A DNA stretch of 64,000 bases from Chloroflexus aggregans DSM 9485 (GTDB lineage Bacteria > Chloroflexota > Chloroflexia > Chloroflexales > Chloroflexaceae). Position numbers and translations under genes: made by a program. Below, piece by piece: positions 4,620 to 50,646 of the stretch; within the stretch, counting starts at the first letter, position 1, and each line of letters starts with the position of its first letter. The notes beneath the pieces were generated by a model. That model saw nothing but the letters and a program-made list of their open reading frames with translations. It made no database searches and had not been told where the DNA came from. Where the stretch lies: NCBI RefSeq assembly GCF_000021945.1, contig NC_011831.1, forward strand, positions 2,741,353 to 2,805,352. Reading direction: 5' to 3'.

Positions 4620-5549
4620 TTATAACATTGCTACAACGGATGGTGCCTCGGCCTGAGTGATTGGTAAACAAACGAGGATACCATCACGAAGTTGAAGCAT
4701 AATCCGGTTACTATGTACGATAACAGAAACCGCGAGCTGTTCACCAACACGATAATCAATCGCGTCGCCAATCGTAGCCGTCTGACCATCGGCGGCAACG
4801 TAGGTGAAAGGTTGCCCCCATTCGGCAATGGCGCGCACGAAAGCGTAAGCTTGCACTACCGACCATGCCGCAGTGAAATGTAAATCGCTAGATCGTGGTG
4901 CTGGGTAGGTACTACCGTCGGTGGCTTGCGGTTGCGGCTGCCATGTCGATGTTACCAGATCGTTGAGGGCCTCCGGTAGTAAGCGGGCCGCTTGTTGGCC
5001 GGCCACCGTCTCGATCACACTCAGTCGTTCGCCGAAAGGAAGATCAAACCATGCCTGAAGCACTATTGGGCCGTGGTCAAAGGCTTCATCCATCAGGTGC
5101 CATGTGATAGCAGTACGCTGCCAACCTAGCCGTAAGGCACAAAAGAGTGGTTCTGGCCCGCGCAGTTCTGGCAACGGTGAGGGGTGCATATTGAGAAACC
5201 CTAGCCGTGGTATCGTGAGAAGTGGTGGACGAATGCGCCAAGGCCAGCATACGACGATGGCTAGATCAACCCGTTGTTGCTCCAATTGTGCGGCTAATGC
5301 GGTCATACCGTCTCGGCTGACGGCAAAGCGAGGGACGTTAGCTTGGGCAGCGCGTGAATATAGCGTGATCGGTGTTACGATCTCTTGACGGGGAATTGGC
5401 GATGTCGGCGGCAGGATGGTAAGCGCCGGCATACCCGGTGGCGCCGGATGAACCAAACCCACAATCTCTACCGGCAGTTCGGTGAGCCTGTGCCATACTG
5501 TCCATGCTAATGGCCCCGGTATAGCAAAGAAGACAATTCGCATGCTCAT
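4620..5549 (-). CDS. methionyl-tRNA formyltransferase-like protein
   Basis: A 309-residue protein with both domains of the methionyl-tRNA formyltransferase family. The N-terminal catalytic domain has Leu-Asn-Met-His-Pro-Ser-Pro-Leu-Pro-Glu-Leu-Arg-Gly-Pro (about residues 118-131), where Asn-x-His and the SLLP-like loop bind formyl-THF, and Asp-Glu-Ala-Phe-Asp-His-Gly-Pro (about 154-161) in the place of the canonical Asp-Thr-Gly-Asp box. That second box keeps an acidic residue but is unusual. The C-terminal part (about 210-309) resembles the tRNA-binding barrel. It may be the housekeeping enzyme or a paralogue; the deviating box argues for a paralogue. It is divergent from yggX. Confidence 0.65.
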   Translation of the reverse strand: MSMRIVFFAIPGPLAWTVWHRLTELPVEIVGLVHPAPPGMPALTILPPTSPIPRQEIVTPITLYSRAAQANVPRFAVSRDGMTALAAQLEQQRVDLAIVVCWPWRIRPPLLTIPRLGFLNMHPSPLPELRGPEPLFCALRLGWQRTAITWHLMDEAFDHGPIVLQAWFDLPFGERLSVIETVAGQQAARLLPEALNDLVTSTWQPQPQATDGSTYPAPRSSDLHFTAAWSVVQAYAFVRAIAEWGQPFTYVAADGQTATIGDAIDYRVGEQLAVSVIVHSNRIMLQLRDGILVCLPITQAEAPSVVAML

Positions 5550-5610
5550 TCTTTTCTTTCAGGTATAATGAAACCGATACCGCCGATTGAATAACGTGAA
5601 AGAAGAGCCT

Positions 5611-5913
5611 ATGCCTCGTATGGTACAGTGTGTGAAGCTTGGTCGCGAACTACCCGGTCTTGAGTGCCCACCCTTCCCCGGCCCACTCGGCCAGCGGATT
5701 TACGAGCAGGTTTCGGCGCAAGCATGGCGAATGTGGCCGCAACAGGCGACGCTGATCATTAATCATTACGGTCTTAGCTTGGGCGACCCAAATGCGCAGC
5801 AGATTCTGATGAAGGCCATGGAAGAATTCTTCTTCGGCGAACATGCGCAGGTGCCTGAAGGGTGGACGCCACCAACCGCTGCCCCGGCCAAGGGTGGGCC
5901 ACGCCGTAAGTAA
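5611..5913 (+). CDS. yggX: YggX-type Fe(II)-trafficking / oxidative damage protection protein
   Basis: About 100 residues, the family's normal size (near 90) with a short Pro/Lys tail. The conserved Cys in the Val-Gln-Cys-Val-Lys segment near residue 7, Phe-Pro-Gly-x-Leu-Gly-x-Arg-Ile-Tyr, Ala-Trp-x-x-Trp-x-x-x-Gln-x-x-Leu-Ile-Asn and the terminal Glu-Gly-Trp-x-Pro-Pro all match YggX. The protein is thought to protect Fe-S clusters and handle labile iron. The start at 5611 follows GAAAGAAGAG; an in-frame ATG at 5587 adds eight unconserved residues. Its stop abuts the stop of the convergent ATP-grasp gene with no gap. YggX is best known from Proteobacteria, so transfer is possible. Confidence 0.85.
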   Translation: MPRMVQCVKLGRELPGLECPPFPGPLGQRIYEQVSAQAWRMWPQQATLIINHYGLSLGDPNAQQILMKAMEEFFFGEHAQVPEGWTPPTAAPAKGGPRRK

Positions 5914-7170
5914 TTACATCCGTGCTTCGGTCAATTCAATTGCCGGTACGATTGTAAACTGCAATTGGGCGTGGGCCGCGCACAACGCTGCTTCGACCGT
6001 TGCCGGATCAGGGCCACGGGCAAAGATAAAACCGAGATAACTATCGCCCTCCGGGAGTGGCGTCAGGGGGTAGTGGAGTGGGGCGGTGATCTCTACCGCC
6101 TCAATTCCGGGAATTGCTTGTGCTGCTTCAATACCGGTAACCTCGCGTAAGATGCCGGCTTGTGGAATGGGGATCATCATCACGCCCCCCGCCTGACCGG
6201 CTCGGCTGAGCGACTCGATCGGCAAGCCAATCGCTTGGCGCAAGATCAACTCTTCGAGTGATGCATCGGTGCCGAAGCGCAAGGTGCGCGAACATAAGCC
6301 GCCGATACTGCGATTAGCCAGCTCGATCATCCATGGCCCGCGCTCGTTAATGCGCAATTCGGCATGCAGTGGCCCCTGTTCGAGACCAACCGCTCGCGCC
6401 GCCGCTGCTGTCACGTCGCAAATCGCGGCTTGGGTCGCTGTGGGCAAGCGTGATGGCGTGACGTAAATCGTCTCTTCAAAGAACGGCCCGTCGAGCGGAT
6501 CAGGCTTGTCGAACAGCGCCAGCACCTGCACCTGCCCGCGGTCGATCAACCCCTCTAGCGCCACTTCAAACCCCGGCACAAATTCCTCGACCAGAAACTC
6601 ATGCGTTCTCGGCCCCTCGACCCGGTCAAGTAGCGCCGTCAACCGGCGCGTGGCGGCAACGAATTGGTCGGGGTTATCGGCCCGGATCACGCCGCGGCTA
6701 CCGTTGAGCCGCAACGGTTTCACGACGCATGGGAAGGGAATAGATTGGGCTACTGTCGTGAGATCATCGGCAGTGGTACAGAGGCGAAACGCGGGTGACG
6801 GTACACCGGCGCGAGCAAAGAGCTGGCGCATCAGATGCTTGTCGCGCGCGGCAGCGGCAGCTTCGGGCCGATTGAAAGGTAGACCGAGTTCGGCGCAAGC
6901 CAGCGCCGCTAACTCAACCCCGCTATCATCAACCGGCAGAATCGCGGTGAGCGGCTGGCTGGCGTGCAACGCACGGATGGCGCGTAATGCGGCTGCCTGA
7001 TCACTGAAGTCAATCAGCAAGCGTCCCGGCAACGGGCGGGCCAAGGCCGGCGGCGTATCTTCGGCGACCGTCGCCTGCGCGCCGATCCGTTCGGCAGCGG
7101 CCAGAAAAGCCGGCAACCGGTACGACGATGGCGTGGTGAGGAATAACAGGTGTGGGTGGGTGGGTGGCAT
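5914..7170 (-). CDS. ATP-grasp domain ligase
   Basis: A 418-residue protein of the carbamoyl-phosphate-synthase-like ATP-grasp group. Residues 1-90 form the pre-ATP-grasp fold. Pro-Phe-Pro-Cys-Val-Val-Lys-Pro-Leu (about 145-153) and the following Gly-Ser-Arg-Gly-Val loop bind ATP; Glu-Phe-Leu-Val-Glu-Glu-Phe-Val-Pro-Gly-x-Glu (about 190-201) gives the adenine-contact strand; Glu-Leu-Ala-Asn-Arg (near 287) carries the Mg-binding Glu/Asn pair. The C-terminal 110 residues resemble the ATP-grasp C domain seen in amino-acid and peptide ligases. It should couple an acid to an amine with ATP. The substrate cannot be told and no pathway genes adjoin. A broken methyltransferase lies upstream and runs into its start. 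Confidence 0.75.
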   Translation of the reverse strand: MPPTHPHLLFLTTPSSYRLPAFLAAAERIGAQATVAEDTPPALARPLPGRLLIDFSDQAAALRAIRALHASQPLTAILPVDDSGVELAALACAELGLPFNRPEAAAAARDKHLMRQLFARAGVPSPAFRLCTTADDLTTVAQSIPFPCVVKPLRLNGSRGVIRADNPDQFVAATRRLTALLDRVEGPRTHEFLVEEFVPGFEVALEGLIDRGQVQVLALFDKPDPLDGPFFEETIYVTPSRLPTATQAAICDVTAAAARAVGLEQGPLHAELRINERGPWMIELANRSIGGLCSRTLRFGTDASLEELILRQAIGLPIESLSRAGQAGGVMMIPIPQAGILREVTGIEAAQAIPGIEAVEITAPLHYPLTPLPEGDSYLGFIFARGPDPATVEAALCAAHAQLQFTIVPAIELTEARM

Positions 7171-8134
7171 ACGATGCGCTTACGTGTAAAAAAAGCAGCC
7201 GTTGATAGTTCCCTATTGCGTATTCTACCACCTGTTGCTCTGCTAAAGCACGAGCGGTAGCACTCTCTTTGCCTAAGATTTGGGCTAATGTCAACCGATT
7301 CAGCGAATTGAGCGACTGCGCAGTGATCAGACGCTTGGCATCCCAGAAAGTCAAGGCAGACCAGAACTCTTGCGCCGGATCGGACATCACGAGTTCGTAC
7401 AAGAGAACGCACTTCTCTTCAGAGTCGCATGGAAAGAAGTAGCAAGTATCATCAAGAACCACCGGACGCCCTTGATGCCGAAATATGCGCACGAATCGAA
7501 GTGATACAGCGGTGCCGCTGCGATTCGCATCCCGCGTTGCCAAGTATACGCGAGCGCTTTACGCGCGACGGTAGTTTTGTACAGCACAGCCAGCATGCCG
7601 TGCTTGCCATCAAGCCATTCAAGGTTTTTGCGCAACATCCATATCTGAGATATCAAAATTGCTTTTACCGGTGAGCGCATCAATGCCACGTAGATTATCA
7701 AGATTCGCTTTCACCGGCGTATTTGCGCTGCCTAGCGCGCTCAATGCCGAATTGGTCACCCATGGCGGATTTCCGATCACGAGCATTGGCTCAGGCAATG
7801 TGGCAATGATTGCCGGACAATCGGTGAGAAAGAAATTAGCTTGATGGATTTCAACCCGCGCCTGCGAACATATCCTTGAGCAAACGTGTTGCGCCTGTGA
7901 AACATAGTTCGGGTTTATCTCAAAACCGAGCACGCGACGTGCGTTAGGAAACGTTTCCAACGCTGCTTGTAGAAATGCCCCTACCTCGTATGTTGGTTCA
8001 AGAATGGTATCAGGATCAAATCCGGTCTGTGCAATCAGCGCACAAACTGCTTGCACTAGCTCCAGCGGCGTTTGAAAATTGCCAAATGCGGTTTTGGATG
8101 GGTTCGTAAGCACCGTGTATCGTTGTCGTTTCAA
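7171..8134 (-). pseudogene. SAM-dependent DNA methyltransferase with two frameshifts
   Basis: Reading from 8134 downwards, the first frame gives Phe-x-Thr-Pro near the start, a Leu-Glu-Pro-Thr..Gly-x-Phe SAM loop and the catalytic Asn-Pro-Pro-Trp box (about residue 118), all typical of adenine-N6 DNA methyltransferases. Between 7640 and 7666 the frame must change to continue into Trp-Met-Leu-Arg-Lys and a Leu-Leu-Tyr-Lys-Thr segment, and near 7470-7495 it must change again to reach the C-terminal Phe-Trp-Asp-Ala-Lys-Arg-Leu-Ile-Thr piece. The last frame has no stop before the ATP-grasp gene. About 320 residues can be assembled. No restriction partner is seen beside it. Frameshifts could be real decay or errors. 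Confidence 0.7.
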
Positions 8135-8472
8135 GCCATCAGTGGTATCTGGTTGCTCAAAAATATGCGGAAAGTGTATACTAGTAGCAGAATAGCCTTA
8201 TTCAAGGCTGTCTCAGTAAATGATGATACTTCTAGGGTTTTATATTGTGAACGCTTGATCCCTTGCAGGCATTATGGGTGCTGGCGGGGGAGATTGCTTC
8301 GGGCTGCAAGCACACTGCATTACGGTGTGCCTGCCCACCCTCGCAATGACAGAAGCCAACGCGCGTACTGGGGTTTATCTAACTGCCCTCGCTATAGCAA
8401 AGAATAGTGTGATCTATCTACGGCTCTCCTCGCTCACATTGATGTTCAATGCACCAACATCACGCCGCCACC
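8135..8472. repeat. intergenic stretch with a hairpin repeat
   Basis: No gene is seen. At about 8308-8335 GCAAGCACAC pairs with GTGTGCCTGC (one mismatch) inside a larger GGGAGATTGCTTCGGG ... CCTCGCAATGACAG frame. This layout resembles the short dispersed palindromic repeats common between genes in many bacteria. The rest is AT-richer and without signals I recognise. Confidence 0.4.
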
Positions 8473-9858
8473 TCACAAATACCGGGCCGCCAATTGCTGA
8501 TTATTCGGCTCGGCGCAGCAGTACCACGGTTCGCTGAGGCGGGGGATGGGTGGGGATGGCGGGAGGGTAGCCGGGCGCGGTCCCGGCCCGATCACCTGAT
8601 CGCACAGATCGAGCAGGCGCTGGTAGAAAGCAGTGCGCGACATACCGCCATGGTCGCCGCATTGGGCCAATTCGAGCGCGGCCTGCTGCAACGTATCCAT
8701 GGCCGGGTCGGGGTGACGCCACGGATATACCAAGCCGGCGGGATCGAATGGCCCGACCAGCGCGCGCACGTCGGGCAGTTCGAGCAGGCGCGAGCCGGCG
8801 GGGATGAGCAGGCGCAGGCCGTACTGCACTGGCGCGACGCTTTCGATCAACCCCAATTCGGCGATTCCCAGCAACAGATCGCGATAGATCTGGCGGGTTG
8901 TCCACGGTGTAAACGCGACAAACGTCGCGTTAAGCGCAATATCATTGGCGCGCAGCAGCGCGACGGCGCGGGCGACATCGGCGCGGGTGTGGCGTTTGGC
9001 AAAGCGGGCGAGAATCTCGTCATCGAGCGCTTCGACGGCGCTGACCGCCATGATGCAGCCGGTGGCGCGCAATTCCGGCAGCAGATGAGCGTAGCGCAGA
9101 ATGTGCTCGACTTTGATCGTCACATCGTAGGTCAAGTCAGGGAACTCGGCGTGCATCGCGCGCACGATCGGCAAGACGTGGCCGGGGCCGTTGAGAAAGT
9201 CGGGGTCGCCAAAGGTGATGTGGCGCGCGCCGGCAGCCACTTGGTCACGGATGTCGGCCAGCACCGTTTCGCGCGGCACGACGCGGAAGCGGCCATTGTA
9301 GACCGGCACGACTGGACAATGGCGGCAGAGGTGTTTGCAGCCGCGGGTCGTTTCGGTATAGCCGGCGAGGCGCGTTTCGGCGCCATTGATCAGAGTGGCG
9401 TACCGGTTGAGGGGCGGCAAGCCGCTGCGATCGGGCGGAACCAGATCGAGCCGGTTGAGCGCGATAGCGTCAACGGCGGGTGGACGTTCGCCGGCGGCTA
9501 GGCGTTGCCAGATCGTGGTGAGCAGTTCTTCGACTTCGCCGCCGAGGCAGCAATCGGCGCCGGCGGTGCGCAGCATCGCGGCGTTGAGCGGCGCGTAGAG
9601 ACCGTAGCAGACGATAAAGGCATTGGGGGCGGCAGCGCGTAGGCGCGGTAACAGTTCGAGCGCCAGGCGAGTGGCGGTGTGCATGGGCACTGAGATAGCA
9701 ATCAACCCGGCTTCAGCCGCCATTGCCGCGGTCAATGGCGACACACTGGTATCAACGCAGGTCACGGCAGCACTGGCCCGCCGTAACCATGCCGCGGGCG
9801 AGGCGAGACTCAACGGTTGGTGACCAAGTTCGTAGGTGGAGATGAGCAAGACGTTCAT
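8473..9858 (-). CDS. CCAEP-tail radical SAM protein (B12-binding type)
   Basis: A 461-residue protein. Residues 1-125 look like a cobalamin-binding Rossmann domain without a clear Asp-x-His-x-x-Gly ligand. Cys174-x3-Cys178-x2-Cys181 is the radical SAM [4Fe-4S] motif, followed by a TIM-barrel region with Gly-Asp-Pro-Asp-Phe (SAM contact) near residue 216. The last 15 residues carry Trp-Tyr-Cys-Cys-Ala-Glu-Pro, the hallmark tail of the CUAEP/CCAEP-tail radical SAM (seleno)protein family, in which the first Cys (447) is selenocysteine in some members. The reaction of that family is not known to me. The start at 9858 is used because conserved sequence begins there. No obvious partner gene adjoins. 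Confidence 0.8.
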   Translation of the reverse strand: MNVLLISTYELGHQPLSLASPAAWLRRASAAVTCVDTSVSPLTAAMAAEAGLIAISVPMHTATRLALELLPRLRAAAPNAFIVCYGLYAPLNAAMLRTAGADCCLGGEVEELLTTIWQRLAAGERPPAVDAIALNRLDLVPPDRSGLPPLNRYATLINGAETRLAGYTETTRGCKHLCRHCPVVPVYNGRFRVVPRETVLADIRDQVAAGARHITFGDPDFLNGPGHVLPIVRAMHAEFPDLTYDVTIKVEHILRYAHLLPELRATGCIMAVSAVEALDDEILARFAKRHTRADVARAVALLRANDIALNATFVAFTPWTTRQIYRDLLLGIAELGLIESVAPVQYGLRLLIPAGSRLLELPDVRALVGPFDPAGLVYPWRHPDPAMDTLQQAALELAQCGDHGGMSRTAFYQRLLDLCDQVIGPGPRPATLPPSPPIPRLSEPWYCCAEPNNQQLAARYL

Positions 9859-40357: not shown

Positions 40358-40852
40358 TTAATCACGACCGATGGCCGCTTCCGTTAGCAAGCGTACCATT
40401 TGTTCAATTGAGCGGCGGGCACGGGCAAGGGCCAGCGTCATATCGGCCAATATCGCTTCCGCAAGGGTCAGATTTGATGAATAAGTCGGCCGCAGACGTT
40501 CAAACAGGTCTTGCACCTCTTCAAGGCTCTGCGCTGCGCGCTCGAGCGCATGTTCGCTATCATCGCGTTGCCGGGCGGCGACCATCGGCCAACGGCCATT
40601 GATGTCGGCTCCACGCACAATGGCGAGATAGCGGCGCATGCGCTCGATACAGGTGAGCGCATCGTAAACCGCACGTTCGGCAGTCACGAGCATCACCCGG
40701 GCAAGGTGGATGTTACGGCTTAGTTCGGGGGACGCTTGTTCAAGCGTGCTCCGTGCTTGCTGGATGTATTGAACCGCCTCGTCAGCCACGCGGATCAGTT
40801 CCACCCTCTCGGTCTCCAGTTCGGTTGGCCAGCGGCGTGGGATCGTCGGCAT
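40358..40852 (-). CDS. helical protein of unknown function
   Basis: About 164 residues, predicted almost entirely alpha-helical with heptad-like Leu/Ala spacing (about 12-155), rich in Glu, Arg and Ala, without Cys or membrane segment. It resembles a coiled-coil bundle. ATG 40852 has AAGGAG 11 bases upstream and overlaps the end of the preceding gene by 71 bases. No family recognised. Confidence 0.6.
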   Translation of the reverse strand: MPTIPRRWPTELETERVELIRVADEAVQYIQQARSTLEQASPELSRNIHLARVMLVTAERAVYDALTCIERMRRYLAIVRGADINGRWPMVAARQRDDSEHALERAAQSLEEVQDLFERLRPTYSSNLTLAEAILADMTLALARARRSIEQMVRLLTEAAIGRD

Positions 40853-41231
40853 ACTCAACAACGCTCCTTCGTGTACGGCGTAAGTACTCTTCAGCCTCGC
40901 GACGGCGAAGAACACTTTCGCCGAGCTGCCAGAGAATGATCGGAATCCCCGCAGCTACAAAACTGCGCCAAACCAGTTCTTCGTAGTGTCGCCAATCAAG
41001 ACCACGAACGCGACGAGCAGCGACGGCAACCGGCGCTAGCGAGAGGACGACCCCACCGGCTACTTCTGCCCACAAATGGTCAGGCGCAAGGGTTGGATAC
41101 CGTCGCTGAATGAATTGCAATGCCGCTGCGTACATCGTTGAGAGCCCGATAACCTGCAACGGTAGTTGAACGGCGAGATGATCGGCATCAGTGACAGTAT
41201 CGATGGTGGTGGTGTAGTTCACTGCTTGCAT
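40782..41231 (-). CDS. small membrane-associated protein of unknown function
   Basis: About 149 residues. Two hydrophobic stretches lie near 20-40 and 55-75, and a third weak one near 92-108, followed by a charged C-terminal tail rich in Arg, Glu and Asp. ATG 41231 opens it; the longer in-frame part from 41390 is not gene-like. It is cotranscribed with, and overlaps, the helical protein gene. No family recognised. Confidence 0.5.
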   Translation of the reverse strand: MQAVNYTTTIDTVTDADHLAVQLPLQVIGLSTMYAAALQFIQRRYPTLAPDHLWAEVAGGVVLSLAPVAVAARRVRGLDWRHYEELVWRSFVAAGIPIILWQLGESVLRRREAEEYLRRTRRSVVEYADDPTPLANRTGDREGGTDPRG

Positions 41232-41585
41232 TGTGGGATTCCTTTCGTTGTCACGGTATGAGTATACCATACTGTACGTTAAATGTCTAGAATTGTGGGT
41301 TGTTTTTGGGTAGCTATTGGGTTTTTGATTGACGCCTGCCTCCTCGCTGATTGAGCAGGTGTCCGCCACATCGCGATTGAAAGACCTCACCGGTATCGCA
41401 GCGACAGATGTTGTATCTCCATAATACTACAAACTGTAGTAAAGTCAACCCCCCCCAAAAGTACTATGTAGACGACTAGACGCCTTGACTATTATATGCT
41501 ATAGTACAAGCGCTCAGGTATAAAAAGTACCCAACAACATCCTAATAATTACCCTGGTTGCGGACTAAACTGTCGCGAGAAGAGT
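41232..41585. promoter_or_regulatory. AT-rich regulatory region before the MraZ-like cluster
   Basis: No gene. The stretch is AT-richer than its surroundings and contains TTGACT near 41487, a TATAGT near 41502, runs of C, and the inverted repeat at 41425-41441. It separates two oppositely oriented operons and should hold promoters for both. Confidence 0.5.
41425..41441. promoter_or_regulatory. inverted-repeat operator upstream of the MraZ-like gene
   Basis: TACTACA-AAC-TGTAGTA is a perfect dyad with 7-base arms and a 3-base centre. The identical arms recur at 42043-42059. The TACA/TGTA core resembles BlaI/MecI-family operators. No BlaI gene is in the window. Confidence 0.75.
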
Positions 41586-42035
41586 ATGCTGCTCGGAACG
41601 TGGATCGTACCAATCGATGACAATGGTCGGTGTGTGATACCATCACCACTGCGTCCCCTGCTCGGTCTCACCGTTGTAGTGACACGTGGTTTTGAGCGCT
41701 GTCTTCACATCTGCCCCGAACCATTTTGGCGTGGTCTTGCCCGGCGCGTCAGTACGCTTACGCTCGGTGGTGGCGATGAACGATGGTTGCGTCGGCTGCT
41801 GTTCGCCGAGGCGCAGGTGTCGCTCCTCGATGCCCAGGCAGCAATTACGTTCTCTACCGCGCTCCGTACCTACGCCGGTCTTGAACGTACTGCTGTGTTC
41901 GTAGGGATGGATCAGTATCTCGAAGTGTGGGCGCCGGAACGATGGCAGGAGTGTGAGATGACCCTGTTGGCCTCCGCCGGTCGCTGGTCACGCCTCGATT
42001 GGGGTGTCGCCCACAGTGATGTCGTTTCTTTATAA
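41586..42035 (+). CDS. MraZ-like transcriptional regulator
   Basis: A 149-residue protein with the two-repeat AbrB-like fold of MraZ, the regulator at the head of division (dcw) operons. The first DxxGR motif is intact (Asp11-Asp-Asn-Gly-Arg15, then Val-Ile-Pro). The second is degenerate: Asp-Ala-Gln-Ala-Ala replaces Asp-x-x-Gly-Arg, but the following Leu-Arg-x-Tyr-Ala..Val-Phe-Val-Gly-Met..Glu-Val-Trp..Glu-x-Trp is clearly MraZ-like. Two inverted repeats flank the gene at -145 and just after its stop. It is a paralogue rather than the main MraZ, I infer, and leads a cluster ending in an FtsZ paralogue. Confidence 0.75.
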   Translation: MLLGTWIVPIDDNGRCVIPSPLRPLLGLTVVVTRGFERCLHICPEPFWRGLARRVSTLTLGGGDERWLRRLLFAEAQVSLLDAQAAITFSTALRTYAGLERTAVFVGMDQYLEVWAPERWQECEMTLLASAGRWSRLDWGVAHSDVVSL

Positions 42036-42042
42036 GCGTGTT

Positions 42043-42059
42043 TACTACAGTATGTAGTA
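42043..42059. promoter_or_regulatory. second copy of the inverted-repeat operator
   Basis: TACTACA-GTA-TGTAGTA has the same 7-base arms and 3-base spacing as the site at 41425. It lies eight bases after the MraZ-like stop and 16 before the small gene, so it could control the downstream genes separately. Confidence 0.75.
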
Positions 42060-42074
42060 GAAAGAGGGTGCCTG

Positions 42075-42263
42075 ATGAATAGCTCGCGATTGTACTCATC
42101 ACGACTGCTTAGCGACCGCCCTGCCGGGAGCGCTCTGGTTGCCCGTCAACGCTTACGTCAGACGTTGGAGCGCGAACGGTTGCTTGTGCGTGAGCCGAAC
42201 GCCGATCAAAGGCTCTTAGTGGCGTTGTTGGCCGCCGATGTGCCGACGAGATCGGAGGGGTAA
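42075..42263 (+). CDS. small protein of unknown function
   Basis: A 62-residue, strongly basic protein (many Arg, repeated Arg-Leu and Leu-Leu). AAGAGG lies seven bases before its ATG and an operator dyad sits just ahead, which supports expression. A single amphipathic helix is likely around 20-45. No family recognised. It stands between the MraZ-like and CHAT genes. Confidence 0.5.
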   Translation: MNSSRLYSSRLLSDRPAGSALVARQRLRQTLERERLLVREPNADQRLLVALLAADVPTRSEG

Positions 42264-42354
42264 GTGGCGAAACATAGTGTGGTGGTTTGTGTCGGCTGCA
42301 GGGTGGCGTCTCGTAGGGGTAACGGTGTTGAGATAGGCAAACCCAAGACGGTGT

Positions 42355-43677
42355 ATGCGATCAATCTACCATCCGGTATTGCTCTCAATCGATTTTAGCT
42401 CGTACCATCGCGGTTTTTTCGTGCGCTGGGAAGCAAATGAGGTGATTGACATCACCCACAGTCAAATGCCGATGCCGATTGCGAGTGAAGATGTGCCACT
42501 CGTGTTGCGTGCCCTTGATGTGCTGCAAGATCCGGCTTATCCACATCCATGGACGGCAGCCCAAGAGACCGCTTTTACCTTTACCCCGGCCGAGCAGGAC
42601 CGCTTGCGTGAACTCAATTTCTGGGACGATGGCGAGCACATCCCGCCAGATTTGCCACGCCGCGTGGGTCGTCGCCTGTTTCGCGCCTTAACCCATGATC
42701 CACGTGGTGCAGAGGCGCTGAAGATGGTGCGTAACTTTGCGCTGGCCGTTGACCGCCCACTGCTGATTGCTTGCCATTTCAATGCGCATGCTGCCGCAGA
42801 TGTCGCGTTGGCGTCTCTGCCGTGGGAGTTGCTGTGGGCCGATGAACCCACGCCGTTGCTGACCGAACGACGTTTATCGGCCACGATTGAGCGACGGTTG
42901 AAACATACCGGTCCACCACCACAACCGGCACCCGGCAGCGGTGCGCTACGGATTCTGGCTCTCTCGCCACAGGCCGGTATCCCACCTGAGTTGCGTCAAC
43001 TTGAGCGAAGTGTGCGAATGAACGCCTTGCAACCGCTGCTCGAGCGACAGTTGGCCGAGGTGCGGGAGTTAAGCCCGGTCTCACGTCGCGAACTGGAACG
43101 GGTGGTTCGTGAATGGGCGCCGGATGTGATTCACTACTACGGCCACGGGCGTTACGAGCGTGGTGAAGGTGCGCTGTTACTGGATTGTGAGCGTGGCGGC
43201 GAGGAATGGACACCACCGAGTGCGCTGGCAGCGGCAGCAGGTGGAGTTCGGATGGTGTTGTTACACGCTTGCCAAGGCGCTATGACAACCCCCGGCACCA
43301 CCTTATTGAGCAGCGTTGCCCCGGCACTGAGTGTGGCCGGTGTGCCGGTGGTGATCGGGATGCAGTTTACGATCCGCGCCGATGCAGCTACACGCATCGC
43401 GAGTATTGTCTACGCCGGGTTGGCGCAGGGGCGGAGTGTGCAAGAAGCCTTAGCCGCCGCTCGGATCGCGCTGTACGTGAGCGAGTCCGATCAAGTGTCT
43501 TGGTTTGTGCCTGCGCTCTATGTGCGTAATCGGCAGTTTGGCCCGCTTTATCTGCGTCCACCAAGCGATCAGATGCCGGCCCTTACGTTGAGCGCGAGTT
43601 CTGTTCGTCGCTCGCCGATCATTCGCCGCCTCCGCATCCAAGAGGAATGGCGGGCACGACGAAAATCCCGTGAATAG
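42355..43677 (+). CDS. CHAT-domain (caspase-like) protease
   Basis: A 440-residue protein. The C-terminal half is a CHAT peptidase domain, clan CD: His-Tyr-Tyr-Gly-His264-Gly carries the catalytic His and Leu-Leu-His-Ala-Cys306-Gln-Gly the nucleophile Cys; Pro-Trp-Glu-Leu-Leu (about 156-160) is the usual CHAT entry motif and Ala-Gly-Val-Pro-Val-Val-Ile-Gly-Met-Gln-Phe follows. The N-terminal about 130 residues are unassigned. CHAT proteases are known in bacterial defence and regulated proteolysis. Here the neighbours are division and wall genes, so a target in the division machinery is possible but unproven. No clear ribosome site is seen. Confidence 0.85.
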   Translation: MRSIYHPVLLSIDFSSYHRGFFVRWEANEVIDITHSQMPMPIASEDVPLVLRALDVLQDPAYPHPWTAAQETAFTFTPAEQDRLRELNFWDDGEHIPPDLPRRVGRRLFRALTHDPRGAEALKMVRNFALAVDRPLLIACHFNAHAAADVALASLPWELLWADEPTPLLTERRLSATIERRLKHTGPPPQPAPGSGALRILALSPQAGIPPELRQLERSVRMNALQPLLERQLAEVRELSPVSRRELERVVREWAPDVIHYYGHGRYERGEGALLLDCERGGEEWTPPSALAAAAGGVRMVLLHACQGAMTTPGTTLLSSVAPALSVAGVPVVIGMQFTIRADAATRIASIVYAGLAQGRSVQEALAAARIALYVSESDQVSWFVPALYVRNRQFGPLYLRPPSDQMPALTLSASSVRRSPIIRRLRIQEEWRARRKSRE

Positions 43678-43704
43678 TCTGTAGCGCTGCATAACAGGTG
43701 TGCA

Positions 43705-45630
43705 ATGTACCAGATCGAATGGGTTGGGATGACCCGTAACAATTTTCAACCGGGTTCGCCAGATCGGATTCGGATGATTGTACTGCACGCGACTGCCGGC
43801 TCGTATCCCGGTGACTTCAAGTGGCTGCGGCAGGGTGGTGCTCCGGGACGAGAGGTTTCAGTGCATTACTACATCACCAAGCGTGGTCAGATTTTTCAGT
43901 TGGTCGCCGATCACGATATTGCGTGGCATGCCGGTGTGAGTCGCTGGGAGGTCGATGGCCGTACCGTTTATGGCTGTAATGAGGTATCTTTGGGGATCGA
44001 GTTGGAGAATCGTAACGATGGCCGGGATCCGTATCCGCCGGAACAGTACGCGGCTGCGCTTTGGCTCGTGCGTGAGCTGGTGCAGAAGTATCACATCCCA
44101 CCTAACCAGGTAGTACGTCATCTCGATATTTCTCCCGGTCGCAAGACCGATCCGGCGGGTTTTCCGTGGCAACAGTTTCTCGATGAGGTGTTTGCCGATC
44201 TTACGGCGGCACCGTCGTTGCCGGTGGGTGATCGGTTGCGACAGTATATGCTCGATATTGCTTACCGTGCTGCCGGTAGTGGGTTGCCATCTGAATGGCC
44301 TTTTTGGACCCATGCCCGTGCTACGAAACTCGGTATGCCGGTGGCCTCGTTGGTTGCCCGCCCCCTCGCACCACGCCCGGCTGCGGCGCCAAACGACCGC
44401 GAACGTGCGTTGAGTTTGCCAGATGGGACACGCTATCTGGTTGAGGTGTATGCCCGTGATGCACTCTGTGCTGAAGTTGGTGCCGACGATACATTCCGTG
44501 CCGGTACACCAATCGAGCGCCTCAGCACTATTCCGGCTAGTCCGCAACGGATGGCCTTGCTCGAAGCTATCTTTCGGGCCGTTGATCCGGTCAACGGTTT
44601 TCAACCCGGTTGGGCATTTCATCAGTATTTTCTACGACACCTCGACACACTGGGTATGCCAATTAGCTACAATCATCGGCTGGCGCTCACGGCAGGATTG
44701 AGTTTCGCGTGCCAACACTTTGCCCTCGATAGCCTGTGTTCGCCGGTAGGACAATGGCAGGTAATCTATCGGTTGAGCGAGCTTAGGCAGGCCGCTGCGG
44801 GGCAGATGGTACTGGCCGGTCTGAGCCGCGAGCGGGCCGATCAACTCGCTCACTTGTTGCTCGACGATCTCTTCGCACTCCGCACCGGTTGCCGTTACCA
44901 TCCTGAAGCGGCGCTAGTCCAGTATGCGTTGACCGAAGAGCTTGGGGCGCCACTTGCTCCGGCAGAAACGGCCGTGATTGACGGAATACCGGTGGCGCTT
45001 ATGCCTTTCGCGCTCGATGTGGTGGCATGTCGCTTACCAACCCCTGATTGGCCGCTCGAACGGCCATTGCCGCCGTCGAGTCCGTTCGGTCGGCTGACGG
45101 CGTTGCTCAGTGGGTTGCGATCAACAGCGACCGGTATTGTGCGGCTGTCTCGTCTCAACGGTCAACATCTGTCACTGTCGCCGATGAGTACAGTGCCCCT
45201 GTTAGGCCCCTCTCGTCACGGCCAACCGTTGATCGACGTTAGCCTCTTTGCCGGTGATGGTGAAGTGCGGCGTCAGCCTATTGATACTATTCTCATCGTC
45301 CCGGTACCAGGCCCAACCGGTTTACTGTTACCCAATGCCCATATTGATGCTCGTTGGCATTATTACATCGATCATACCGGAATGGTGTATCGCCTACGGC
45401 ATGAACGCTTCGTTGCCCGCACTGCTCGTGGCGTAGGCCGACCGGCTGAACGTCTCGATCAGCGCGCATTGGTGATTGCCGTCGAAGGATTGTTGCAGCA
45501 TTCATCACCGCGGTTGCGCAGCGCCCTGCAAGCGCTCGTTTATCTCCTCCGTCGACATTTTCGGATTCGTGTCGATCGGGTACAAGTGCTCGAATCTGCT
45601 GCCGGTGTTCCTGTCACCGATAGGGAATGA
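43705..45630 (+). CDS. N-acetylmuramoyl-L-alanine amidase with a degenerate second amidase domain
   Basis: A 641-residue protein. Residues 20-165 form an active-looking Amidase_2/PGRP domain: zinc ligands His28, His139 and Asp149, with Glu99 and Lys147 at the AmpD catalytic positions (AmpD His34, Glu116, His154, Lys162, Asp164). Residues about 165-520 contain at least three Leu-Gly-x-Pro motifs in helical surroundings, resembling LGFP-type wall-binding repeats. Residues about 530-635 copy the amidase fold (His-Tyr-Tyr-Ile-x-x-x-Gly-x-Val-Tyr aligns with the first domain) but His28 and His139 equivalents are Pro and Leu, so it cannot bind zinc. No signal peptide is seen, strange for a wall hydrolase; export may need another route. 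Confidence 0.8.
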   Translation: MYQIEWVGMTRNNFQPGSPDRIRMIVLHATAGSYPGDFKWLRQGGAPGREVSVHYYITKRGQIFQLVADHDIAWHAGVSRWEVDGRTVYGCNEVSLGIELENRNDGRDPYPPEQYAAALWLVRELVQKYHIPPNQVVRHLDISPGRKTDPAGFPWQQFLDEVFADLTAAPSLPVGDRLRQYMLDIAYRAAGSGLPSEWPFWTHARATKLGMPVASLVARPLAPRPAAAPNDRERALSLPDGTRYLVEVYARDALCAEVGADDTFRAGTPIERLSTIPASPQRMALLEAIFRAVDPVNGFQPGWAFHQYFLRHLDTLGMPISYNHRLALTAGLSFACQHFALDSLCSPVGQWQVIYRLSELRQAAAGQMVLAGLSRERADQLAHLLLDDLFALRTGCRYHPEAALVQYALTEELGAPLAPAETAVIDGIPVALMPFALDVVACRLPTPDWPLERPLPPSSPFGRLTALLSGLRSTATGIVRLSRLNGQHLSLSPMSTVPLLGPSRHGQPLIDVSLFAGDGEVRRQPIDTILIVPVPGPTGLLLPNAHIDARWHYYIDHTGMVYRLRHERFVARTARGVGRPAERLDQRALVIAVEGLLQHSSPRLRSALQALVYLLRRHFRIRVDRVQVLESAAGVPVTDRE

Positions 45631-45645
45631 CATGGAAGGAAACCT

Positions 45646-46728
45646 ATGCAATCGTCTGATCCGCCAATCCACCCGCGCTCACCCATCACGATAAAGCTCA
45701 TTGGTATTGGTGGTTGTGGTGGGAATCTGGTGAGTACACTCACCTTTCTACCCGATCAGGTGGAGGTGATTGTTGCCAATACCGATCGGCAAGATCTGGC
45801 CGGGCGTGTCCATGTTCCAACCCGAGTATTGCTCGGTCCACAAGTGACTGCCGGAAAAGGCACCGGCGGCCATCCATCGGTTGGAGCGGCCGCTGCGCAA
45901 GAAAGTGAACCGGTGTTGGCACAAGTCCTTACCGGTGCCGATCTGGTCGTGATCGTTGCCGGTATGGGGGGTGGTACCGGTACCGGTGCTGCGCCGGTTG
46001 TCGCTCGTCTTGCGCGTCAGTTGGGTGCGCTGACCTTAGCATTTGTGACAATGCCGTTTCACGTTGAGAAGGGGCAGCGTAGCCGCGTGGCCGAAGCAGG
46101 ATTGGTCGAGCTAAGTAAGGTTGCCGATGCGGTAGTCGTGGTCTCAAATCAGAAGGTGCTCAATTTTGTCGATCCACGTGAAACCTTAACCAAAGCGCTG
46201 ACCTACAGCAACATCATCTTAGGTGCGGCAATGAGAGGGGTGATTGAGCAGCTCTCGTCGCCGTCGCTGATGCAGCTTGATTTTTCTCATATCGTCCAAA
46301 CCCTGCGCAATGCCGGCCTGACGATGCTCGGTATTGGGAGTGCTACCGGTGGCGATGCAGTACAACGTGCGATGAAGTATGCGCTCCAATGCGATTTGTT
46401 AGAAGGCAACTTGACCAAGGCTCGACGTGTCTTTCTCTCAATTATTGGCGGTAGTCGTTTAGGTTTGCACGATGTCGATCGCGCGATTGCCCAGCTTCAT
46501 CAAACCATTGCCAACGATATCGATTTGGCTATCGGTGTTGTTGTGTCTCCCTACCAACCACAACCCGAACGGGTGCAGATCACACTGATTGCGAGTGAAG
46601 TGGCTTCATTTCGCCAACGGCAGTACACCGTCTCGGCATCCTTGCCTGTCAATCCACCATCGCCACCTGCAGTCTTAACCGACGATCTGCCGCCGTTTCT
46701 GAAATTATCTTGTCGAGGGAGCCTATGA
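45646..46728 (+). CDS. FtsZ-family protein with altered T7 loop
   Basis: A 360-residue tubulin/FtsZ superfamily protein. The GTP-binding side is intact: Gly-Ile-Gly-Gly-Cys-Gly-Gly-Asn (20-27), Asn45-Thr-Asp-x-Gln-x-Leu, and the signature Gly-Gly-Gly-Thr-Gly-Thr-Gly at 108-114. The T7 synergy loop that completes catalysis in the next subunit is Gln210-Leu-Asp212-Phe-Ser-His215 instead of Asn-x-Asp-Phe-Ala-Asp, so the residues matching E. coli Asn207 and Asp212 are replaced. Polymers might form but hydrolyse GTP poorly. The C-terminal FtsA/ZipA-binding peptide is not evident. It is probably not the main FtsZ. Stop overlaps the next gene's ATG. Confidence 0.85.
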   Translation: MQSSDPPIHPRSPITIKLIGIGGCGGNLVSTLTFLPDQVEVIVANTDRQDLAGRVHVPTRVLLGPQVTAGKGTGGHPSVGAAAAQESEPVLAQVLTGADLVVIVAGMGGGTGTGAAPVVARLARQLGALTLAFVTMPFHVEKGQRSRVAEAGLVELSKVADAVVVVSNQKVLNFVDPRETLTKALTYSNIILGAAMRGVIEQLSSPSLMQLDFSHIVQTLRNAGLTMLGIGSATGGDAVQRAMKYALQCDLLEGNLTKARRVFLSIIGGSRLGLHDVDRAIAQLHQTIANDIDLAIGVVVSPYQPQPERVQITLIASEVASFRQRQYTVSASLPVNPPSPPAVLTDDLPPFLKLSCRGSL

Positions 46729-47555
46729 TACTTCATCTTTGCACTGATGACCCGCTCGTCTCACTCGTCCATGACCTCTTTGGTGCTAATCCGGTCCGTG
46801 TCCCTGATGCCCGCATCCGCCCGCTCTCGGTCGTCGTTCATCGGCGTGGGCGGAGCATCTTTCGTGGTTCACTCTTACCGTTGCTCACCGACTCGAGTCC
46901 GCTGAGTGTGCAACCGTCGGTCGCACAATTGATCGACATCAGTGGCCGGCGCTCGCGGTGGGTGAGCCTCGATCTCGGTTTAAACATTCTGCGCGGCTTT
47001 CTCTACGGCTTTGGCCTCCCCATGGCCGAATTGACCACCTCTATTCAAGGGGCAACGGCTATCTCCTTCGCGTTTCCCACCGCTATGCGCATCGCGTATG
47101 ACGTGAACGCACTGGGTTGGGCACTGGCCGGGCGGGTTATCGACCGTACAAATCCGGCAGCCGCGATCTTGTTTGAGCAGACACCTTACGAACTCCTCTT
47201 AATTGACTCGGTCTTAACCAGTCGGCATATCACAATCACGCTGAGTGGAGCCAAAGGTCAACGCCTCAATGTCGATGTTGATGCCCTTCGCCAGATGCTC
47301 GGTGATATGGGCGTGAACGCCGGTATTACCAACAACGGCGAACTTGACCTCACGCTGACCAGCCCGCACGATTTAACCTTTGCGTTTTCGTGCGTCCGTC
47401 TCTTTTTTAACGATGAGGGATATATCACCACCATGCCACCCGATCTCGACCGGCGCGTGCTTAGTAGTGACCATGGCGCGCAGGTTCGCTACACCCCCGA
47501 TCGGGTGATGTTGAGTGAGCGACCGGCAATGGTGCTGTGGGATCGGGTACGGTAG
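46725..47555 (+). CDS. unrecognised protein coupled to the FtsZ paralogue
   Basis: A 276-residue protein with no domain I recognise. It is a mixture of short strands and helices, without signal peptide, membrane helix or Cys cluster. The C-terminal half (about 150-245) has a regular hydrophobic pattern that could be a beta-rich domain. It starts inside the FtsZ stop (ATGA) with GAGGGAGCC just upstream, so the two proteins are made together and may interact. The cluster ends here. Confidence 0.65.
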   Translation: MILHLCTDDPLVSLVHDLFGANPVRVPDARIRPLSVVVHRRGRSIFRGSLLPLLTDSSPLSVQPSVAQLIDISGRRSRWVSLDLGLNILRGFLYGFGLPMAELTTSIQGATAISFAFPTAMRIAYDVNALGWALAGRVIDRTNPAAAILFEQTPYELLLIDSVLTSRHITITLSGAKGQRLNVDVDALRQMLGDMGVNAGITNNGELDLTLTSPHDLTFAFSCVRLFFNDEGYITTMPPDLDRRVLSSDHGAQVRYTPDRVMLSERPAMVLWDRVR

Positions 47556-48290: not shown

Positions 48291-49370
48291 CTACGGTGTG
48301 ATCACCGGCAGTGTCTCGGCGATTGCCGGATCAAGGGTCAATAGGCTGCGGTGGACCCAACCCTCTTGGCCGCGCGGGTTGATAATCCGTATCCATACCC
48401 CATCGGCACTGCGGCCAAGCAGGATGACCGTTTCATAGGCGTGAATTTGATCAAGGACGGTGCCTTGGAGGTTAGGTGCAGCGCGCACGTTCCCACCATT
48501 AAAAACCGATGCGGTCGGTCGTACCGGTGTGGAGGTCGGTTGTGGCGTCGCCGTTGGTTGTGGGGTACGAGTGGGACGTGGTGTGACCGAAGGACGGTTA
48601 GGTACCGTTGATTGTAGTGTAGGGCTATTGGTGCCCAACGACCGGGACGTCGCACGTTCACCGTTCGTTTCTCCAACCGGCACCAGTTGCCCAATGCGGT
48701 CTATGCTGATGACCGGCGGTCCGCTGATGCTGAAGGCGATGCCGGCAACCACGAGGTTGAGACCAAGCGCGAAAGCAACCGGGAGGGCCACCGACCGTTT
48801 CCGGCGCTGCTGGTTGGTCAATCGTCGCTGTTCGGCCTCTTCGATCCGTTGCCACAGTATTCGATGATCCCACAATTCGAGAGCTTGCCCGCGGGCTTCG
48901 AGACGCGATTGATCGGTGAAGGTGCTGGTCGTCACCAAAATGGCTCGGTCAGCTTGCTGAATCTGGAGCGCGCCAACGAGATCGCGCACGTAGTTGGGTC
49001 CGACCGGTTTGGTGTACCGTTTGCATTGGATAATGTAGCGCAAACCGTCTCGTTGGGCGGTAATATCAACACCGCGGTCACCACTGCCACCGCGCACCAC
49101 AACGTTCTGCCACCCTAGATCTTCAAGCAACAGGGCGATGCGCTGCTCGAATTCGCTCGGTGATAATGCTAACAATTGCTGACGATACAACCGTTGCACA
49201 CGTGCATGGTGCAGCGAGCGGGCAATAAAGAAAACAATTGTGAGACTACCAACTATCAGGCTGATTATCCACCAGAGCGACAACCCGCTGAATAGACTGA
49301 ATACGATGAGGATACTAAGCAAAGAAGCGAGAAGATTAGTTTCTGTACTGGAACGTGAGCTTGAAGGCAT
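48291..49370 (-). CDS. membrane Mrr-like restriction endonuclease with SH3 domain
   Basis: A 359-residue protein. Two helices near 12-30 and 33-52 anchor it. Residues 65-180 are an Mrr-type PD-(D/E)xK nuclease domain: Glu73 in Phe-Glu, Asp102 in Gly-Asp-Arg-Gly-Val-Asp-Ile, and Gln115-x-Lys117 in Ile-Ile-Gln-Cys-Lys-Arg-Tyr. Another helix lies near 195-216. A Pro/Thr linker (about 250-283) and an SH3-like domain (about 285-350, Gly-Asn-Val-Arg-Ala-Ala-Pro-Asn and Gly-Trp-Val-His) follow, outside the membrane. AGGAG precedes the ATG. Such a nuclease would cut methylated or foreign DNA in the cytoplasm, with the SH3 domain contacting the wall. Confidence 0.8.
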   Translation of the reverse strand: MPSSSRSSTETNLLASLLSILIVFSLFSGLSLWWIISLIVGSLTIVFFIARSLHHARVQRLYRQQLLALSPSEFEQRIALLLEDLGWQNVVVRGGSGDRGVDITAQRDGLRYIIQCKRYTKPVGPNYVRDLVGALQIQQADRAILVTTSTFTDQSRLEARGQALELWDHRILWQRIEEAEQRRLTNQQRRKRSVALPVAFALGLNLVVAGIAFSISGPPVISIDRIGQLVPVGETNGERATSRSLGTNSPTLQSTVPNRPSVTPRPTRTPQPTATPQPTSTPVRPTASVFNGGNVRAAPNLQGTVLDQIHAYETVILLGRSADGVWIRIINPRGQEGWVHRSLLTLDPAIAETLPVITP

Positions 49371-49558
49371 ATCGCTATCTCCTGTATGCTGTAGCTTTTT
49401 GCCGTGCTACATTATAATTGGCGACCATTAACCGTCTATTTCCATGCTCCTACGTTATAATGAACAAGAGCGGCATTGGTCGGTGTAGGTTCGTTTGTTC
49501 TTATCGTTGACTACTTGCCATCGGCGCCGAATTGTATCCCTTCACAGGAGGAAGCATT

Positions 49559-50065
49559 GTGAAGCTCTTACAGGCACGCTGGATCACACCGTTGCTCGTG
49601 GCGGCGTTGGTAATTGGGCTGGATCAGGCTTCCAAGCGCTGGATTATCGACACGCTTGGTCCAACGCCGATGACGCGCTTTATTCCGCTGATCGGTGAGG
49701 ATATCCGGCTGGCGTATTCGCATAATACCGGTATCGCGTTTAGCCTATTCCAAGGCAAATCGGATATCCTGACGGTTGTTGCGTTTGTGATTATGAGCGG
49801 CGCGATTTATCTCTACGTAACCCAACTCCCGAACCGACGTAAACTGGTGCAAGTCGCGATGGGGCTGATTCTCGGTGGAGCACTTGGTAATGTGATCGAT
49901 CGCATTCGTTTGGGATACGTCGTCGATTTTATCCAGGTAGGCTGGTTCCCGATCTTTAATCTAGCCGATAGTGCGATTACCGTCGGCGCGGCCCTATTGA
50001 TGTTGCAATATGCACTTGATGAAATCGCGTTGCGTCGGTTACGCCAGGCGATGATGTCACAATAA
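49559..50065 (+). CDS. lspA: signal peptidase II (lipoprotein), copy 1
   Basis: About 168 residues with four membrane helices. The catalytic aspartates are in Gly-Asn-Val-Ile-Asp-Arg and Phe-Asn-Leu-Ala-Asp-Ser, and Asn-Thr-Gly-Ile-Ala-Phe is conserved. It cleaves lipoprotein signal peptides at the lipobox Cys. Start is GTG 49559 with AGGAGG seven bases ahead. A second copy begins five bases after its stop. Confidence 0.9.
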   Translation: MKLLQARWITPLLVAALVIGLDQASKRWIIDTLGPTPMTRFIPLIGEDIRLAYSHNTGIAFSLFQGKSDILTVVAFVIMSGAIYLYVTQLPNRRKLVQVAMGLILGGALGNVIDRIRLGYVVDFIQVGWFPIFNLADSAITVGAALLMLQYALDEIALRRLRQAMMSQ

Positions 50066-50070
50066 CCGCC

Positions 50071-50646
50071 ATGCGTAAGCGTTGGATGCTTCTCATGTTT
50101 GTGGCTGTGCCGGTTGTGATCCTTGATCAACTAAGTAAAGCTTGGTTGAGCACCGTATTACTGCGCGTCAATCGTCCAATTAGTTTGCTCTTTGATTGGG
50201 TGCAACTGGCCTACTACGAAAATACCGGAGTTGCGTTTGGTCTTTTTCCCGATCAGGGTGGTGTTCTCTCGATTAGTGCCGGCTTCATCTTGTTGGTGTT
50301 GGCCCTCACTTACCAATACCTGTTACCTGCCGAATCGCGCTGGGTAACGGTGGCTACCGGCTTGGTGTTTGGTGGTGGTCTTTCTAACCTCTTCGACCGC
50401 TTACGGCAAGGGTACGTGGTCGATTTTATCCAGTTTGGTTGGTGGCCAATGTTTAATCTGGCCGATAGTGCGATTACCTTAGGCGTGGCGGCCTTGGCAT
50501 TTCACATCATCTTTATCGGTGATGAGCCGTCTGGTATCGAACCGGAACCGATCGATGACGGGTTGCTGAACGAGTTGCTGAGCCGCGCACCAGAATCCCC
50601 ATCGCCGACCGAGCCATCGCAACGCAATTCGGAGTTACCGTCATGA
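50071..50646 (+). CDS. lspA: signal peptidase II (lipoprotein), copy 2
   Basis: A 191-residue paralogue of the preceding gene, with Asn-Thr-Gly-Val-Ala-Phe, Ser-Asn-Leu-Phe-Asp-Arg and Asn-Leu-Ala-Asp-Ser intact, so both copies look active. It has a longer acidic C-terminal tail of about 30 residues. Its stop overlaps the next gene's ATG. Tandem duplication is uncommon for lspA and could reflect specialised lipoprotein sets. Confidence 0.9.
   Translation: MRKRWMLLMFVAVPVVILDQLSKAWLSTVLLRVNRPISLLFDWVQLAYYENTGVAFGLFPDQGGVLSISAGFILLVLALTYQYLLPAESRWVTVATGLVFGGGLSNLFDRLRQGYVVDFIQFGWWPMFNLADSAITLGVAALAFHIIFIGDEPSGIEPEPIDDGLLNELLSRAPESPSPTEPSQRNSELPS

Follow-up and report, generated by a model that had tools for sequence, protein, structure and literature searches.

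Genes of the locus and identity of the last product

This analysis concerns a gene cluster of Chloroflexus aggregans DSM 9485 that lies within a stretch of 64,000 nucleotides (contig NC_011831.1, positions 2,741,353 to 2,805,352; hereafter the window) and ends in a gene for a bacterial gasdermin (bGSDM). The genome consists of one contig of 4,684,931 bases. A preliminary description of the window, made from the sequence alone, had reported six adjacent genes, and all six open reading frames (ORFs) were found open at 41425-47555 in the ORF list. In window coordinates they are:

41586..42035, + strand: MraZ2, the second MraZ of the genome (PF02381, 76.6 bits, two stretches)
42075..42263, + strand: small protein, found only in Chloroflexus loci (8 of 8)
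42355..43677, + strand: CHAT caspase-like protease (Pfam PF12770, PADLOC 'chat')
43705..45630, + strand: N-acetylmuramoyl-L-alanine amidase with a live Amidase_2 domain, middle repeats and a degenerate second Amidase_2 domain
45646..46728, + strand: FtsZ2, an FtsZ paralogue with the GTP-binding loop kept and the T7 loop changed
46725..47555, + strand: bacterial gasdermin (NF051890, PADLOC bGSDM, PDB sequence matches, Foldseek)

The product of the last gene, previously left as unrecognised, is a bacterial gasdermin. No Pfam family was named for it; it matched NCBIfam NF051890 at 187.8 bits (cut-off 100) and the PADLOC bGSDM profile at 253.5 bits. A profile built from 12 relatives reached the PDB entries 7n51 and 8sl0 at about 1e-18. 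The AlphaFold model (mean predicted local distance difference test score, pLDDT, 68.4) has the solved bGSDM 7n51 as its top Foldseek match (E 1.6e-12), and the entries ranked 1-33 all contain gasdermin or the gasdermin-like RCD-1. Since the last protein is a bGSDM, the cluster is interpreted, with high confidence, as a CHAT-gasdermin death system with extra parts; a caspase-like protease and a bGSDM together are a known cell-death pair.

An N-terminal cysteine (motif LC..DP) was kept in all 24 gasdermin rows, the fragment L099 being excluded from the counts, and Cys6 is a candidate lipidation site; N-terminal cysteine palmitoylation is described for most bGSDMs (PMC9079055; PMC9612521, the latter available in part). 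Near the C-terminus all 23 readable rows (L089, with an internal stop, was omitted) have an R-x-L motif, followed by Gly in 14, Ser in 8 (window included) and Asn in 1, and then by a conserved tail. The Runella bGSDM is cleaved after Leu247, with Gly next (PMC9079055), and in the available part of PMC9612521 the bGSDM cut is placed behind a Leu or an Arg, some 20 residues before the C-terminus. R-x-L is thus a likely, not a proven, cleavage site, because a freed tail would number some 30 residues and several rows do not have the Gly.

The MraZ-like regulator, CHAT protease, amidase and FtsZ paralogue of the preliminary description were each named by Pfam as well. The CHAT protein scored 78.5 bits against PF12770 and 360 bits against PADLOC 'chat', and its His-Cys dyad was kept in 22 of 22 aligned rows (the partial rows L092 and L098 were left out).

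The amidase matched Amidase_2 (PF01510) at 128.3 bits in two stretches. The His, Glu, His and Asp motifs of its first domain were present in every one of the 24 aligned rows (L096 omitted), and the second domain, rightly called dead in the earlier account, was degenerate and without the histidine motif in the same 24. No signal peptide was seen, the domain starting from residue 20 without a hydrophobic leader. The closest PHROG matches were phage amidases and endolysins; the fold of the first domain resembles AmiD and AmpD, with peptidoglycan recognition proteins (PGRPs) lower in the list, and an AmpD-like NCBIfam match fell below cut-off. Residues about 174-443 (window 44224-45033) form three helix-helix-strand repeats in the model, a portion of which matches repetitive segments of further proteins in the order; these are possibly wall-binding repeats.

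FtsZ2 matched PF00091 (132.7 bits) and PF12327 (49.5 bits) and fell under the cut-off of the division equivalog TIGR00065 (257.2 against 295.2 bits). The GTP-binding loop GGGTGTG was present in all 20 copies, the window copy included; L081 (in-frame stop) and L094 (a contig-end fragment whose T7 loop reads intact) were kept out of this tally. The reported change of the T7 loop was borne out, the window FtsZ2 reading LMQLDFSHI where the genome's canonical FtsZ has LINVDFADV. All eight Chloroflexus FtsZ2 have MQLDFSH, with Asn and Asp lost, and all 12 rows from the other genera have INVDF(A/G)D. The C-terminal peptide is DLPPFLKL in the window FtsZ2 and DIPPFLRG in canonical FtsZ; a canonical-like peptide occurs in 16 of 20 FtsZ2 and in none of L082, L087, L096 and L093.

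The last two genes, described earlier as translationally coupled, share a four-base ATGA overlap of the ftsZ2 stop and the gasdermin start (46725-46728), and the latter start is most likely 46725 rather than 46710. Eleven of 20 loci share the overlap, all eight Chloroflexus among them (for L024 the first of two Met codons in the gasdermin alignment was taken). In a quick FtsZ tree of 56 rows, 19 FtsZ2 copies lay beyond one branch with SH-like approximate likelihood ratio (SH-aLRT) support of 100; all 20, including the copy of genome G348 (L093), grouped with SH-aLRT of only 67. The tree leaves out L081, L094, L052 (no ORF found) and the duplicates L002 and L009-L015. Pairs of ftsZ about 1.3 kb apart were also observed in another family of the order (group f3/g11); where sampled, these fell apart from FtsZ2 in the tree.

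Conservation, distribution and regulatory DNA

The order mraZ2, small ORF, CHAT, amidase, FtsZ2, gasdermin is identical in eight of eight Chloroflexus genomes, and the six genes had median ratios of nonsynonymous to synonymous substitution (dN/dS) of 0.05-0.20 in Chloroflexus comparisons, in which synonymous sites are close to saturation. This order and these ratios point to more than chance. Values were 0.20 for the small protein, 0.15 for MraZ2, 0.10 for FtsZ2 and 0.08 for the amidase, with 0.017 for canonical FtsZ. Distances of CHAT, amidase, FtsZ2 and gasdermin tracked those of canonical MraZ, as taken by tblastn (Mantel r 0.86-0.94, 13-15 genomes); as divergence follows canonical mraZ, the locus was apparently inherited vertically in the family. 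Chance clustering was rejected on the common gene order, the low dN/dS and this tracking.

The preliminary description would have been refuted by the lack of a conserved cluster in other Chloroflexota; the cluster does recur there, yet within narrow limits: of 400 Chloroflexota genomes sampled, 19 have gasdermin, and 18 of the 19 belong to the window's family. Within the family it was above cut-off in 24 of 41 genomes, plus one weak fragment. For the 39 family genomes covered by all searches, a hand tally gave gasdermin in 22, a long amidase match (>590 bits) in 28, FtsZ2 in 21 and locus-type MraZ in 19. The last is the only MraZ found in G004 and G421 and is in pieces in G216. Every one of the 39 with gasdermin, FtsZ2 or MraZ2 also has the amidase, and 11 are without all four. 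The amidases of G354 and G429 are shorter, and no CHAT was found on the fetched stretch. Genomes G216 and G421 carry NACHT-CHAT-amidase with a single FtsZ and no gasdermin. Upstream DNA was readable at 23 gasdermin loci, and in 20 of these FtsZ2 separates the amidase from the gasdermin. Relatives with the locus include Chloroflexus islandicus, Candidatus Chloroploca, Candidatus Viridilinea and Oscillochloris, the last with uncultured loci; these named relatives are filamentous in habit.

A gasdermin pattern scan of genome contigs gave 20 Chloroflexota and two Saprospiraceae loci; it is silent on FtsZ beside gasdermins elsewhere because its patterns derive from the window's family. The two Saprospiraceae loci match in the gasdermin alone, and for locus L090 the sole match was CHAT, at 28% (tblastn). 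At L090 (G335, a different Chloroflexota family; 4839-8546, - strand) the gasdermin adjoins a 940-residue CHAT protein whose C-terminal part resembles, by eye, a periplasmic-binding-type receptor; the pair is perhaps a two-gene gasdermin system with a built-in sensor.

Outside Chloroflexus, a NACHT-FGE-sulfatase protein adjoins CHAT in 16 of 16 readable family loci (two of them in G433). It has about 1,040 residues where whole, its domains being assigned by Pfam on two; FGE is the usual annotation of the C-type lectin domain. It was found in none of the eight Chloroflexus loci. An orthologue elsewhere in the window genome was rejected, the one match covering the FGE part only, at 42%. Other Chloroflexus have remoter NACHT-FGE proteins away from the locus, the best two at 34-35%. 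Chloroflexus combines this absence with the altered T7 loop, the small ORF and the palindromes described below; because these features belong to a single genus, they coincide on a single branch only and do not amount to a test. In another Chloroflexus (G001, locus L137) a NACHT-FGE protein with 35% identity to the putative locus sensor of other genera lies about 13 kb downstream of the gasdermin and could act in trans. A second NACHT-CHAT-amidase set was observed on a short contig of G433 (L144), a genome that also has a gasdermin locus.

Upstream of the six genes lie two divergent small genes, and the DNA around mraZ2 carries two kinds of repeats:

40358..40915, - strand: up1, small protein, an ORF overlapping up2, divergent from the main operon
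40782..41390, - strand: up2, small membrane protein (alignment and hydropathy), divergent
41297..41322, - strand: three ACCC boxes with 11-bp spacing, MraZ-box-like, before up2 (12 of 12 core positions)
41425..41441, no strand: operator 1, palindrome TACTACA-N3-TGTAGTA, exact in 8 of 8 Chloroflexus
41497..41505, + strand: extended -10-like TGC-TATAGT, by eye, in 8 of 8 Chloroflexus; putative promoter element
41529..41554, + strand: ACCC boxes with 11-bp spacing before mraZ2, middle box degenerate (10 of 12 core positions)
42043..42059, no strand: operator 2, the same palindrome, exact in 7 of 8 Chloroflexus, the eighth with two mismatches

Exact TACTACA-N3-TGTAGTA occurs at two sites in the 4.68-Mb genome, which flank mraZ2 on both sides; spacers of the TACTACA palindromes vary among Chloroflexus. 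They may have some resemblance to BlaI/MecI-type sites. ACCC repeats were present in 19 of 20 loci, in both orientations in 13 of the 20. In the 20 intergenic regions that separate up2 from the main operon, 46 triple ACCC boxes reached 10 or more of the 12 core positions, against 0.9 in dinucleotide-shuffled sequence; at 11 of 12 the counts were 13 against 0.04. As a caveat on these counts, the pattern was chosen once the sequences had been read, and the sites counted may overlap.

MraZ2 fell below the TIGR00242 equivalog cut-off (82.6 against 98.35 bits), and the other MraZ of the window genome lies at C1:3493047. The MraZ of E. coli represses through MraZ boxes (PMC8475190, available in part). 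The ACCC boxes have a TGGG core in common with the repeats before the canonical mraZ (GTGGGGAAAA, 10 bp), and MraZ2 may bind them. Besides the caveat on the counts, this binding is made less secure by the strand and the 11-bp spacing of the ACCC repeats, which both differ from those of the canonical mraZ boxes (10 bp there), by the single MraZ in at least six system-bearing genomes (G019, G224, G255, G262, G425, G433) and by the retention of the repeats in the four of these that were inspected (G019, G224, G255, G262). As the repeats persist in these four one-MraZ loci, MraZ2 as their sole binder was rejected.

The preliminary description also saw a likeness to the start and key member of the division and cell wall (dcw) operon. 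This likeness is shallow: the ORF list, Pfam and NCBIfam gave no further wall or division genes of dcw type beside mraZ2 and ftsZ2 among the locus genes, and the genome has its canonical-type mraZ and ftsZ at another place, 17 kb apart from one another, on which ground the reading as a dcw mimic was rejected.

Proposed lysis system and alternative explanations

A chromosomal gasdermin-based lysis system is, in its full form, somewhat favoured as the best explanation of the locus. Family identities, kept active sites, linkage and conservation were observed directly, and from them the following course may be proposed. MraZ2 and a further factor at the TACTACA palindromes would control two divergent transcripts, up2-up1 and mraZ2-small-CHAT-amidase-ftsZ2-gasdermin, as conserved repeats precede both. 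An insult would activate CHAT; outside Chloroflexus the likely sensor is the NACHT-FGE protein encoded next door, and in Chloroflexus, which is without it, another input must presumably serve, perhaps FtsZ2. CHAT would then cut the gasdermin after R-x-L246, releasing some 30 residues as the tail, and the remaining N-terminal portion, with its lipid at Cys6, would form wide membrane pores, both steps being modelled on the Runella pair. The endolysin-like amidase, having no signal peptide, would reach the wall only through these pores and cut it. Overall this would be a holin-endolysin plan with a protease as fuse, and such lysis by pore plus amidase is judged rather more probable than not from the sequences.

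FtsZ2 and MraZ2 probably couple the lysis system to division, the role of FtsZ being the least secure part. Often made in tandem with gasdermin and in most cases bearing a C-terminal peptide of Z-ring type, FtsZ2 might tie the system to the divisome, and a function as guard or locator is conceivable, if doubtful. An unlikely but more specific form of this idea is that FtsZ2 is a divisome guard, a fast-evolving decoy in the Z-ring that would sense attack on FtsZ or failed division and release the MraZ2-wired CHAT-gasdermin-amidase lysis, the FtsZ2 with altered T7 loop being the main trigger in Chloroflexus, which lacks the NACHT sensor. If true, such a guard would be an inflammasome-like switch built on bacterial tubulin.

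Several observations weigh against these proposals. AmpD, likewise without a signal peptide, acts inside the cell. The FtsZ tree is a quick one in which the program warns of meeting long branches, and the Chloroflexus FtsZ2 branch is very long. The gasdermin loci of G376, G425 and G433 are without FtsZ2, and G348 has FtsZ2 and no gasdermin; in G439 (86% complete) no gasdermin was found in the genome, and the contig ends within FtsZ2. FtsZ2 as an obligate partner of gasdermin was rejected, each occurring without the other. Cleavage is also in some doubt, since a tested bGSDM needed both the Leu and the following Gly (PMC9612521, available in part) and Ser follows R-x-L in the window and seven other rows, Asn in one.

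Other roles for single components were considered. FtsZ2 might be an effector that binds GTP but has a dead T7 loop, co-assembles with FtsZ and poisons the Z-ring, halting division before or instead of lysis; this is improbable. The GTP-binding loop in all 20 copies, the loss of the T7 Asn and Asp in all eight Chloroflexus and the C-terminal peptide in 16 of 20 are consistent with it, and E. coli FtsZ mutated at the T7-loop Asp can act as a poison of assembly. The T7 loop is, however, intact in 12 of 12 FtsZ2 rows of other genera, so dead-loop poisoning would be a Chloroflexus trait and the linkage older. Nor does it seem likely that the amidase acts in sensing or in handling muropeptides instead of as executioner, its live domain trimming and its PGRP-like degenerate domain binding muropeptides and reporting wall damage to CHAT. 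The second domain degenerate in every aligned row, the fold matches to PGRPs, the AmpD-like match under cut-off and the retention of the amidase with CHAT in three gasdermin-less genomes (G216, G421, G348) agree with such a role, but the kept active-site motifs and the phage lysis enzymes that head the PHROG families speak against it.

The purpose of the system as a whole may also differ. A developmental role, in which filaments are cut by the killing of single cells, rather than phage defence, is a tentative possibility. The signs of vertical descent, the gasdermin in all eight Chloroflexus, the division-type genes and the filamentous habit of the named relatives suit it, while the NACHT-FGE proteins suggest immune sensing, the dN/dS of MraZ2, amidase and FtsZ2 exceed that of canonical FtsZ, and a Lysobacter gasdermin operon protects E. 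coli from phages (PMC9079055). The preliminary description had offered both a cell-death unit and stress-triggered division or septum remodelling; the conserved joining of division-type genes, a protease and a wall hydrolase holds, as does the option of cell death. A remodelling module without death, to which FtsZ and MraZ homologues and an amidase would lend themselves, is very improbable, because the last gene encodes a pore-former in which the lipidation Cys, the R-x-L site and the tail are kept.

Parts of this composition have been described before, contrary to what was first supposed. Fig. 2 of a 2022 review draws an Oscillochloris bGSDM operon, and its legend gives caspase/CHAT, C-type lectin, NACHT, amidase and tubulin (FtsZ) for four operons jointly (Johnson and Kranzusch, PMC9612521, available in part). 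Oscillochloris is a relative by name and the legend's gene types match the locus family; as the key covers all four operons, their assignment to Oscillochloris is tentative. The available part of the review proposes holin-endolysin mimicry and describes no MraZ, operators, divergent pair, missing sensor or T7 change. In the literature searched, with most subscription papers outside it and some sources available in part, the review was the one paper to bring parts of this kind together, and no account of these five features was seen. In the available part of PMC9950537, gasdermin, CHAT and FtsZ all occur, and the gasdermin passages do not link them.

The Runella zeae bGSDM with its caspase-like protease is similar in the linked protease, the N-terminal Cys and the cut-site Leu. 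It differs in having Gly after the Leu (Ser in the window), is remote in sequence (7n52, E 0.0059) and has no amidase, FtsZ or MraZ tied to it in the source text. The Lysobacter enzymogenes CARD-NLR gasdermin system likewise has a protease, a gasdermin and an NLR-like protein, the last shared with the non-Chloroflexus relatives only. It uses a CARD and a trypsin-like protease (PMC9079055; PMC13236601, the latter available in part), whereas the present locus has CHAT, amidase and FtsZ. Neither a CARD nor a trypsin-like protease was matched in the locus by Pfam, NCBIfam or PADLOC, and sequence searches can miss CARDs. Phage holin-endolysin systems are alike in function, combining a membrane pore with a wall enzyme without signal peptide, but here the pore-former is a gasdermin, presumably activated by protease, instead of a timed holin.

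The family offers a natural series of gasdermin death loci gaining or losing the NACHT sensor, FtsZ paralogue, gasdermin and MraZ. Three questions can be put to the test on such a series: what triggers bacterial gasdermins, whether pores lead to lysis only with the help of a wall hydrolase, and whether bacteria guard their divisome. The finding also puts likely programmed lysis into a lineage of filaments that bears signs of vertical descent and in which a filament could profit from the death of individual cells.

Flanking genes and genomic position

The divergent genes up1 and up2 accompany the system. No Pfam family was above cut-off for up1, which had a median dN/dS of 0.12 in Chloroflexus and is present beside the locus in readable relatives. 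The up2 protein of the window has three hydrophobic segments by hydropathy, and its true start is probably within the listed ORF. Of 80 genomes from the order, 22 gave up2 matches above 240 bits, and every one of the 22 carries the system; weaker matches also occur in genomes without it (G432, 208 bits; G423, 141 bits).

The seven other Chloroflexus loci (L024-L030) have common flanking DNA on at least one side, and the window flanks match none of them, which suggests that the locus was moved or rearranged in the window genome relative to other Chloroflexus. Directly downstream of the gasdermin, on the opposite strand (48291-49370, - strand), lies a protein with an Mrr-type nuclease domain, a bacterial SH3 domain and, by eye, a hydrophobic N-terminus; the DNA fetched around the loci of the other Chloroflexus contained no match to it. 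Beyond it, at 49532-50646 (+ strand), two adjoining ORFs resemble, by eye, a tandem lspA (signal peptidase II).

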